A stretch of DNA of 53,189 nucleotides from Candidatus Gastranaerophilales bacterium. GTDB lineage: Bacteria; Cyanobacteriota; Vampirovibrionia; Gastranaerophilales; Gastranaerophilaceae. How positions within the stretch are numbered: position 1 is the first letter of the stretch; each line of letters starts with the position of its first letter. Below are positions 23,404 to 24,685 of the stretch, piece after piece. The stretch is taken from the NCBI GenBank assembly GCA_944325315.1, contig CALVAA010000012.1, forward strand, positions 1-53,189. Reading direction: 5' to 3'. Below the pieces are notes generated by a model. The model was not told the DNA's origin, did no database searches, and was given only the letters and a program-made list of their open reading frames with translations. Made by a program: the position numbers and the translations under genes.

Positions 23404-23611
23404 ATAAATTAAACATTCTTTTATAAGCAGTGAAATTTATTTTAGATATAACAATAAATTTGAGGCTGATTAAAACTTGTTTTCGGTTTTTTAGAAATGA
23501 TAATTTTAGAATCCTAATCAGATATCTTAACTCTTCTCTTTTTTTAAATTTTATAGTTCAGAGTGACAAAATAAAGGTTGAATTTTATAAATAATAATAT
23601 AATAAATTGTA

Positions 23612-23654
23612 TCTGGCAGTGATTCGCTCCTAGCGACCTATCCCTTAAAAGGGG
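23612..23654 (-). pseudogene. 3'-half fragment of tRNA-Lys
   Basis: Reverse strand matches the intact tRNA-Lys from the anticodon arm into the T arm: 22 identical bases (23633-23654 versus 23717-23738), including the CTTTTAA anticodon loop, then a diverged T arm and a degraded acceptor end (CCAGATAC for CCAGACGC). The T loop no longer reads TTCGAAT, so it is not a working tRNA. Confidence 0.75.
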
Positions 23655-23693
23655 GTTGATTTTTAGGTATCATATTTTAGGCAATAAAAAATT

Positions 23694-23766
23694 TGCGTCT
23701 GGCGCGATTCGAACGCGCGACCTATCCCTTAAAAGGGGAGTGCTCTACCTGCTGAGCTACAGACGC
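23694..23766 (-). tRNA. tRNA-Lys(UUU)
   Basis: 73 bases folding as a cloverleaf: acceptor GCGTCTG/CAGACGC with discriminator A, D arm GCTC...GAGC, anticodon loop CTTTTAA (anticodon TTT), variable loop AGGTC, T arm GCGCG-TTCGAAT-CGCGC. CCA is not encoded. The outermost pair of the anticodon stem is a C/T mismatch. The downstream reverse strand is T-rich and may terminate transcription. Confidence 0.95.
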
Positions 23767-23792
23767 AAATCTATTTAATTGTCATGTCATCA

Positions 23793-23810
23793 CTCAGCAG
23801 GTAGAGCACT
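23793..23810 (+). repeat. Inverted copy of the tRNA-Lys D arm
   Basis: 18 bases identical to the reverse complement of 23739-23756 in the intact tRNA gene, so a perfect inverted repeat with 36 bases between the arms. It is outside any gene. Confidence 0.8.
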
Positions 23811-23846
23811 GTGCTATTTTTTTCCGTTTCAGCAAGCTTCACCGTG

Positions 23847-23867
23847 TGCTGAGCTACAGACGCAAAT
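23847..23867 (-). pseudogene. 5'-end fragment of tRNA-Lys
   Basis: 21 bases identical to 23750-23770: the acceptor 5' strand, the first half of the D arm and the upstream flank. After this the match stops abruptly, so it is a truncated duplicate lying upstream of the intact tRNA on the reverse strand. Confidence 0.75.
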
Positions 23868-24043
23868 TATATTTTAACAACCAAATAATTCAGTTGCTTA
23901 TTTAATATAACAAGAACAAACTTTAACGTCAAATATTTTTTTTAAAATCTTTAAAATTAATCTTTTTACTATACTCTTTTGTCTGATTTAATAATGTTTT
24001 TTATTTTGTTATCTTCTAAATATACAAATTGAAAGGTTAAAAA

Positions 24044-24685
24044 ATGAAAAAAACACTTCTCTCTTTAATGGTCTTGGGACTTCTAAGCTCTGTCAGTATT
24101 GCAGCTAGCAATGAAAATTGTACAAAAGTGCCTTCTGGTCCTGATTGCGGCTGTAAAAAACAAAATAATTGCATCCAAAAGAAAAATGATTGCAAGAATT
24201 CTTGTACTGAAAAAAAAGACTGTGACCCTAAAAGTGTTGAAGAAAAATGCAACAAATGTACCATAGATGACGATGAATATTGTATCTATAATCAATGCTA
24301 CTTAGACAAACACTTCAGAGACTTAAAAAGAACACTTTGTTTAAGTTCAAAACAAGAAACTTGCATAGATACAATTTACAAAAACTTTAAATCAGACATG
24401 GAAACTCTCCATTCAAAATACAGAGTTGAAAAAAATAAACTTTTAGGAATGATTGAATGCGATAATGACTGCTATAGAGAACAAGTGAGCGTGTTAAAAG
24501 AACTTAAAAAAGAAGCAAAAGAAAAATGTAAAGACTTCAGAAGTGACATAAAAGAACAGTTGTGCAAAAACCAATACAGCGCATATAGAAAATTTTTAAG
24601 ACAAGAAAAAAGAAAAATGAAAAAAATTATTAAATACGGCGCAATCTATAAACTACCTTGTAAAGACTGTTGCGGAAATAATTAA
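24044..24685 (+). CDS. Secreted cysteine-rich protein, unknown
   Basis: 213 aa. A signal peptide (MKKTLLSLMVLGLLSSVSIA) is followed by a mature part with 20 cysteines: eleven in residues 25-90 at short irregular spacing (DCGC, CNKC, and others), then more widely spaced pairs in a strongly charged, probably helical Lys/Glu region, and a terminal CKDCC. The many Cys suggest disulfides or metal binding in the periplasm or at the surface. The helical second half recalls periplasmic LTXXQ/CpxP-like helices, but I do not recognise the family. An aaagg ribosome site precedes the ATG. It overlaps the next, convergent gene by 4 bases. Confidence 0.8.
   Translation: MKKTLLSLMVLGLLSSVSIAASNENCTKVPSGPDCGCKKQNNCIQKKNDCKNSCTEKKDCDPKSVEEKCNKCTIDDDEYCIYNQCYLDKHFRDLKRTLCLSSKQETCIDTIYKNFKSDMETLHSKYRVEKNKLLGMIECDNDCYREQVSVLKELKKEAKEKCKDFRSDIKEQLCKNQYSAYRKFLRQEKRKMKKIIKYGAIYKLPCKDCCGNN

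Follow-up and report, generated by a model that had tools for sequence, protein, structure and literature searches.

Hairpin units derived from tRNA ends in front of tRNA-Lys and other tRNA genes of a Gastranaerophilales genus

REP/BIME sequences and other short palindromic interspersed repeats are dispersed, modular and tandem hairpins of about 40-110 bp that occupy intergenic regions, and their usual partner is a transposase of the Y1 (IS200/RAYT) type. The Rickettsia palindromic elements and the double-hairpin elements of mitochondria are small palindromic repeats, of unknown mode of mobility, which invade genes and non-coding RNAs. A hairpin is also part of rRNA and tRNA leaders, where it is followed by boxA, a TTGAAAATTGAATA-like motif, ahead of the stable RNA. 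The units that we describe here resemble REP/BIME in being modular and tandem hairpins between genes, dispersed in the case of the cassettes of relatives; unlike REP/BIME, they have the end of the host tRNA and the inverse of that end at their flanks, and the Y1 partner is absent in 26 of 27 genomes. They differ from the Rickettsia and mitochondrial elements in that the tRNA was intact at the loci read, with no insertion seen in mature RNAs or reading frames. With rRNA and tRNA leaders they have in common the hairpin followed by a TTGAAAATTGAATA-like motif, but their hairpin is made from the 5′ half of the tRNA itself. Finally, tyrosine-integrase elements that target tRNA genes, such as the one found in a relative (G027), take the 3′ half of the tRNA as their att core and leave a restored tRNA. 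They match at most a 3′ copy present at our locus; in contrast to them, the 5′ unit has neither genes nor an att-like occupied state.

A parallel in process is DNA template switching, which is reported to create and maintain RNA hairpins (PMC8794818). In template-switch hairpins and quasipalindrome correction (PMC8794818; PMC7202029; PMC3820800), the inverted copies are, as here, made from and matched to a nearby template, and the stems are perfect, with few intermediates; such events are expected at highly transcribed palindromes. What differs here is that complete units, in which the leader is duplicated and the cassette can be swapped, form tandem arrays at many tRNA genes. Searches of the open-licence PMC literature brought up no account of bacterial tRNA genes with tandem hairpin leaders derived from the tRNA.

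The leader unit at tRNA-Lys

The window, that is, the whole stretch of DNA analysed, is a complete 53-kb contig (C12) of a 34-contig genome, and close matches to the aminotransferase gene neighbouring the locus are labelled Candidatus Gastranaerophilales, uncultured bacteria of the gut with a relationship to cyanobacteria. The genome loci retrieved around that aminotransferase gene lacked the tRNA. ARAGORN found a single intact tRNA-Lys(TTT) at the locus. Read in the direction of transcription, the features are as follows.

23904..23932, minus strand: tRNA-Lys promoter, TTGACG, a 17-nt spacer with TTTGTTCTTG, and TATATT preceded by TG (consensus scan)
23847..23867, minus strand: copy of the tRNA-Lys 5′ end (ATTT plus GCGTCTGTAGCTCAGCA), 21/21 identity to 23750-23770
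23825..23844, minus strand: P2, a hairpin in the cassette, CGGTGAAGCTTGCTGAAACG, whose internal loop is a tandem G-A (genus alignment; proposed by eye)
23805..23815, minus strand: possible hairpin P3, AGC...GCT (AGCAC/GTGCT conserved in the genus alignment)
23793..23810, minus strand: inverted copy of the D arm (AGTGCTCTACCTGCTGAG), 18/18 complementary to 23739-23756
23772..23784, minus strand: spacer motif TGACAATTAAATA, boxA-like (TGAMAAYTRAATA within 25 nt upstream of the tRNA)
23693..23767, minus strand: intact tRNA-Lys(UUU) (ARAGORN; Rfam RF00005, 70.9 bits)
23600..23654, minus strand: duplicated and decayed 3′ half of the tRNA, with 22 identical nt followed by an altered T arm and an acceptor remnant

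The first-pass annotation had placed all the pieces around tRNA-Lys, and their positions and identities proved exact to the base by repeat search, ARAGORN and Rfam. In the repeat search, positions 23633-23654 matched 23717-23738 over 22 nt with 100% identity, and 36 nt separated the inverted D arm from 23739-23756. The self-matches at tRNA-Lys are 18, 18 and 22 nt long, against at most 9 nt in a reversed-sequence control run up- or downstream of 32 tRNAs of the genome. The 5′ copy covers the 5′ strands of the acceptor and the D stem and forms the 5′ arm of a hairpin, P1; the inverted D arm is the 3′ arm of P1 and at the same time an 18-nt complement of the D arm of the intact tRNA. An assembly artefact is contradicted by the identical arrangement within unbroken contigs of many other genomes. 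The pieces are thus real, and they are more interesting than an integration scar.

The same pieces had first been read as a single second tRNA copy split around the intact one. Comparison with relatives gives another picture: upstream of the tRNA, the 5′ copy and the inverted D arm are parts of a single unit that is conserved, and the 3′ copy varies independently of it. The unit spans about 96 bp between the tRNA-Lys promoter and the intact tRNA, and consists of the 5′-half copy, a hairpin cassette, the inverted D arm, which is the complement of that copy prolonged into the D loop, and a spacer with TGACAATTAAATA, which we take to be boxA-like from its resemblance. We read the tRNA-Lys locus in each of 28 genomes of the genus and found the unit in 15 of them, four of these loci (G009, G014, G016, G019) being interrupted by a contig end. 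Eleven of the 28 have a plain leader, and two have other inserts (a shorter hairpin in G021 and a different insert in G005), so 13 genomes do without the standard unit, which is dispensable. Its copy number at tRNA-Lys ranges from 0 to 2, with two tandem copies in 4 of the 15 (G018, G012, G009, G014); the same unit occurs twice in G018 and once in G011.

Three other genera carry the unit in 20 of 32 genomes (11/15 in g36, 5/8 in g40 and 4/9 in g26), the remaining genomes being those in which the unit is absent, the locus broken or no tRNA-Lys shown. Over the four genera, it is therefore present in 35 of 60 genomes with position, order and structure conserved and no gene inside, and the 5′ copy is conserved across 30 distinct units. 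Of the family's tRNA-Lys loci L075-L160, a scripted screen picked out L085, L091 and L102 as sharing this plan but with another cassette, and L149 was recognised by eye. The copied arm and its inverse follow each lineage's own tRNA, with GCGTCTG or GCGCTTG and with CAGC or CAGT (L217). By pattern search, the core of the window's cassette is confined to tRNA-Lys of this genus (10 of 288 family genomes sampled; 278 misses). It is not dispersed, whereas cassettes of relatives are dispersed with fixed ends. In other genera, several further loci (L129, L136, L142, L145, L086, L088, L096, L105 and others) show different conserved structured tRNA-Lys leaders, for example GACGAAATGAATAGC and a long one with TTTCACCCCCGAG.

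The promoter consensus scan gave 3 hits against 2.0 expected by shuffle and is weak on its own. However, the same promoter with its TTGTTCTTG core lies upstream of tRNA-Lys throughout the genus genomes and also in other genera; the genus form, upstream of the unit, is TTGAC-n17-TATATT-like with TTGTTCTTG in the spacer. Near-invariance of TTGTTCTTG across genera is unusual for a 17-nt promoter spacer, and it is possibly a regulator site. Divergently from this promoter (24044-24685, plus strand) lies a gene for a small, cysteine-rich, probably secreted protein of 213 aa with no Pfam match, and comparable cysteine-rich ORFs face the promoter in other genus genomes (L066, L067). On the side of the tRNA, TGAMAAYTRAATA occurs at most 25 nt upstream of 5 of the 38 tRNAs of the genome, exactly the five with tRNA-derived upstream units. 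It is nevertheless a mark of the leader rather than of the unit, because the motif can also be present in relatives that lack a unit.

Pairing within the unit and with the tRNA

We then compared the two arms of P1 in 30 distinct tRNA-Lys units, leaving out the diverged g26 unit (L149/L217). The copied arm was set against the reverse complement of the 3′ arm with plain DNA scoring, which does not favour G-U. The count was 321 Watson-Crick, 19 G-U-type, no A-C-type and 19 other cells. As the units are related, the 19 G-U cells may represent nine independent changes, all in one direction; in addition, L016 has a compensatory change from GTCT/AGAC to GTCC/GGAC. Since the stem deviates towards G-U and never towards A-C, P1 looks selected at the RNA level, as an RNA hairpin. 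These observations bear on the view that the pieces have no role and are neutral debris left by tandem duplication and inversion. The patchy presence of the unit and the decay of the 3′ copies would suit debris, but the one-sided deviations, the compensatory change and the conserved position relative to promoter and tRNA would not, and we regard this view as distinctly improbable.

The cassette inside P1 was compared by eye, and the counts were taken from P1 only, because a MAFFT alignment across genera misaligned the cassette. In this comparison, the tandem G-A of P2 is kept while the flanking pairs change: UUGGU-GA-GGC/GCC-GA-ACCAA in L091, UUGUC-GA-GGC/GCC-GA-GACAA in L149, and GGUGAAGC/GCUGAAAC and GGUGAGGC/GCCGAAAC in the genus. 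When the window unit was folded alone with RNAfold, a longer extension of P1 was preferred over P2. A P3 hairpin is predicted in L091 and L149. An Rfam scan of the window region and of 15 loci with units or relatives brought only the tRNA to the gathering score. A hammerhead-like or intron-like cassette, considered as a candidate, found no support in Rfam.

In all 30 units, the inverted arm is complementary to the D arm of its own tRNA for 4-15 nt past the copied part, and a match past the copy was also seen by eye at Leu-UAG and Arg. When unit and tRNA were folded jointly, the D arm was predicted to pair with the unit in 30 of 30 cases (12-17 pairs), and most or all of the tRNA 3′ acceptor strand to pair with the acceptor strand of the copy. 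These joint folds lay 10-22 kcal/mol below the separate folds for the 30 units; for units of other genera they used two stand-in tRNA sequences, some of the real T arms being slightly different. The predicted trap follows partly by construction from the geometry of a copy plus its inverse. According to these models, folding order or processing must protect the tRNA from it.

Two mutually exclusive predicted folds in every unit, together with the RNA-strand bias in P1, could point to a regulatory switch, in which the leader would sense a signal or the nascent tRNA, choose between a productive fold and a trapped chimeric cloverleaf, and so control tRNA supply. A CTACCTG segment, with no local partner visible in g36, keeps its complementarity to the tRNA D loop in most units and would fit such a role. 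However, the complementary segment past the copy has no strand bias (5 G-U against 7 A-C in the 30 units), and selection for its pairing with the tRNA is thus not supported. Moreover, a leader in 0 to 2 copies, missing from about half of the genus, is not what a switch would lead one to expect, and the trapping itself would be a consequence of the copy-plus-inverse geometry. We therefore consider a switch unlikely.

The 3′ fragment and integration at tRNA-Lys

The first-pass annotation also proposed that the fragments were left by integration and excision of an element at the tRNA gene, with no integrase remaining; indeed, we saw no integrase in the window's ORF list over the 18-30 kb portion read. 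It called for a comparison with relatives, and this did reveal an island at the same tRNA. In G027, a stretch of about 4.6 kb between tRNA-Lys and two 3′-half copies encodes a tyrosine integrase (PF00589, 2e-27) and an ORF6N antirepressor, and the ends of this element share a core of about 28 bp, TTTTAAGGGATAGGTCGCGCGTTCGAATC, with tRNA-Lys. In G004, an integrase C-terminus adjoins tRNA-Lys. The tRNA-Lys gene is therefore an integration target in this genus. A 3′-half copy within 600 nt downstream of the tRNA scored above the best of 200 shuffles in 8 of the 24 evaluable genus genomes (4 of the 28 having no usable stretch), and the window's copy reached an alignment score of 51 against a shuffle maximum of 27. 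In L012, the 3′ half and the trailer are tandemly duplicated with nothing between them, which fits duplication better than excision. The 3′ copy is thus probably a duplication usable as attB, and the fragment may once have served as an att site.

A departed element would account for the 3′ copy at most. On the 5′ side of tRNA-Lys, no integrated element was found in any genome read; the unit there is conserved and sometimes tandem, its plan recurs at other tRNAs, and its fragments recur at related loci with no occupied site, an observation named beforehand as speaking against a scar. Exact-pattern searches of viral contigs gave 0 matches to the tRNA-Lys 3′ core and 0 to the unit core. As an explanation of the locus, the scar of an element that integrated and left is thus very improbable, in spite of the occupied gene in G027 and the remnant in G004: it may hold for the 3′ copy and fails for the 5′ copy and the inverted D arm.

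Other structures were seen downstream of tRNA-Lys. Four loci (L015, L021, L066, L216) have a D-arm copy there, followed by CCCCTCCAAAATA...GTGTTTT, a stretch much alike in two genera, which suggests recent movement. In g36 (L161, L162, L167, L169, L173), the 3′ flank of tRNA-Lys mirrors the 5′ unit: it holds an inverted T arm, a loop and a second version of the 3′ end of the tRNA.

Units at other tRNA genes and their origin

The unit is not restricted to tRNA-Lys. Five of the 32 tRNAs tested in the genome of the window (Lys-UUU, Thr-GGU, Ile-GAU, Leu-UAG and Met-CAU) have an upstream self-match of at least 11 nt. Units of the tRNA-Lys plan precede the Thr, Ile, Leu and Met tRNAs of this genome and recur at these tRNAs across 27 genus genomes, and relatives have them also at Arg, Leu-CAA, Leu-CAG, Pro and Ala. 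The Ile and Leu units stand in arrays that end contigs. As a separate observation, several tRNAs on contigs C4, C11, C23, C25 and C31 of the same genome lie at most 4 nt from contig ends, a position that would fit a breakage of short-read assemblies by tandem units.

Some of these cassettes are shared between tRNAs. The Thr cassette of the window's genome (G000) is identical at 41 of 42 positions to a 3′-side Arg unit of G020 and at 40 of 42 to a Leu-CAA unit of G008. Its pattern, CACTCTGCCGA-N15-38-GAGAGGG, occurs in 43 copies and 30 distinct versions in 20 of 27 genomes, with 0 matches for the reversed pattern; the ends CACTCTGCCGA...GAGAGGG are fixed, the stems vary, and the cassette is found at different tRNAs and on both sides of them. 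Of 30 fetched copies, 18 have an intact tRNA no more than 300 nt away. The rest mostly adjoin a tRNA-derived end where the contig breaks off, which is not the case for L348 and L360. Phe and Leu-CAA have the cassette on their 3′ side in antisense orientation, where it follows the antisense end of the tRNA and mirrors the 5′ units. The 30 distinct cassettes have perfect stems of 6-11 bp, with 245 Watson-Crick pairs and no G-U, counted up to the first mismatch only. Perfect stems free of G-U are what template switching would leave, and this suggests that the cassette stems are maintained at the DNA level. The window's own cassette is linked to these mobile cassettes by plan and not by sequence. 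Folding of both strands of a dispersed cassette was discarded as a test of RNA against DNA: the sense strand was the stabler in 10 of 10, and shuffled controls leaned likewise (mean −2.3 kcal/mol).

A second cassette is dispersed and tandem in 23 of 27 genomes, with none in the window's genome, and a tRNA was present in 8 of 30 fetched loci; several of the others begin, by eye, immediately 3′ of a stop codon. In L314-L343, a dispersed tandem repeat, GGCARAGGTGTGYGRAG...CCGTACC, occurs with up to 18 copies per genome, often directly 3′ of stop codons. This repeat has nested hairpins with purine-rich internal loops, and the loci scanned gave no match in Rfam.

The occurrence of almost identical cassettes at several tRNAs and in several genomes, with fixed ends and variable stems and mostly close to tRNAs or tRNA-derived sequence, and that of a second, dispersed and tandem cassette may suggest a dedicated small non-autonomous mobile element. 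In such a case, a trans-acting enzyme would insert the cassette into tRNA ends, and the tRNA-derived flanks would be the signature of the target site. A "tRNA-targeted small mobile unit" was indeed the part of the earlier reading that came nearest. However, the units carry no gene, and the Y1 (IS200/RAYT) transposase was found in just 1 of the 27 genus genomes and not in the window's own, so we rejected RAYT/IS200 mobilisation. The duplicated flanks measure about 40 nt and end in an inverted target copy, which sets them apart from known target-site duplications. Insertion by such an enzyme appears to us rather unlikely. We would hold as possible, though doubtful, a broader proposal of a new class of target-copying hairpin elements. 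Its cassettes would colonise tRNA ends, each gaining a copy of the host tRNA end and its reverse complement; the insertion would be masked by the intact tRNA, and the transcribed leader could shift its own tRNA from the productive fold to the chimeric trapped cloverleaf and back.

We favour, with a probability of roughly 0.55, leader units made by template switching and maintained as RNA, beside an independent duplication on the 3′ side. The process that we infer is template switching by DNA polymerase, together with tandem duplication, at a palindrome-rich and highly transcribed tRNA gene. Switching would copy the adjoining spacer and the 5′ half of the tRNA and add an inverted arm templated by the tRNA itself, and would keep the arms in step with the present sequence of the tRNA. 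Cassettes in the form of short hairpins would move between units at different tRNAs, and the survivors would be only those products that leave one intact tRNA. From its position, the unit would be co-transcribed with the tRNA. The P1 hairpin would fold first, and selection on the RNA strand would maintain it, as the G-U deviations without A-C suggest. P1 may keep the inverted arm off the nascent tRNA, so that RNase P can release the tRNA. If P1 were missing, the predicted fold is one in which the inverted arm captures the D arm and the copied acceptor strand displaces the real one, giving a dead chimeric cloverleaf. Some units would thus be retained as hairpins of the pre-tRNA leader. The 3′ fragment would be an independent duplication of the tRNA 3′ half, serving as attB for integrase elements. 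In this proposal the switching process, the transcription, processing and folding of the unit, and the way the leader would act for tRNA-Lys are deduced from sequence and predicted folds.

It follows from the tRNA-Lys locus that not every tRNA fragment should be called an integration scar. How a tRNA can mature beside a sequence able to trap it is a question that the units pose. If they are real as RNAs, they test tRNA folding and processing next to the tRNA's own antisense; if they are products at the DNA level, they are a natural record, over many events, of template switching at highly transcribed genes. They may also account for assembly breaks at tRNA genes in these metagenome-assembled genomes.
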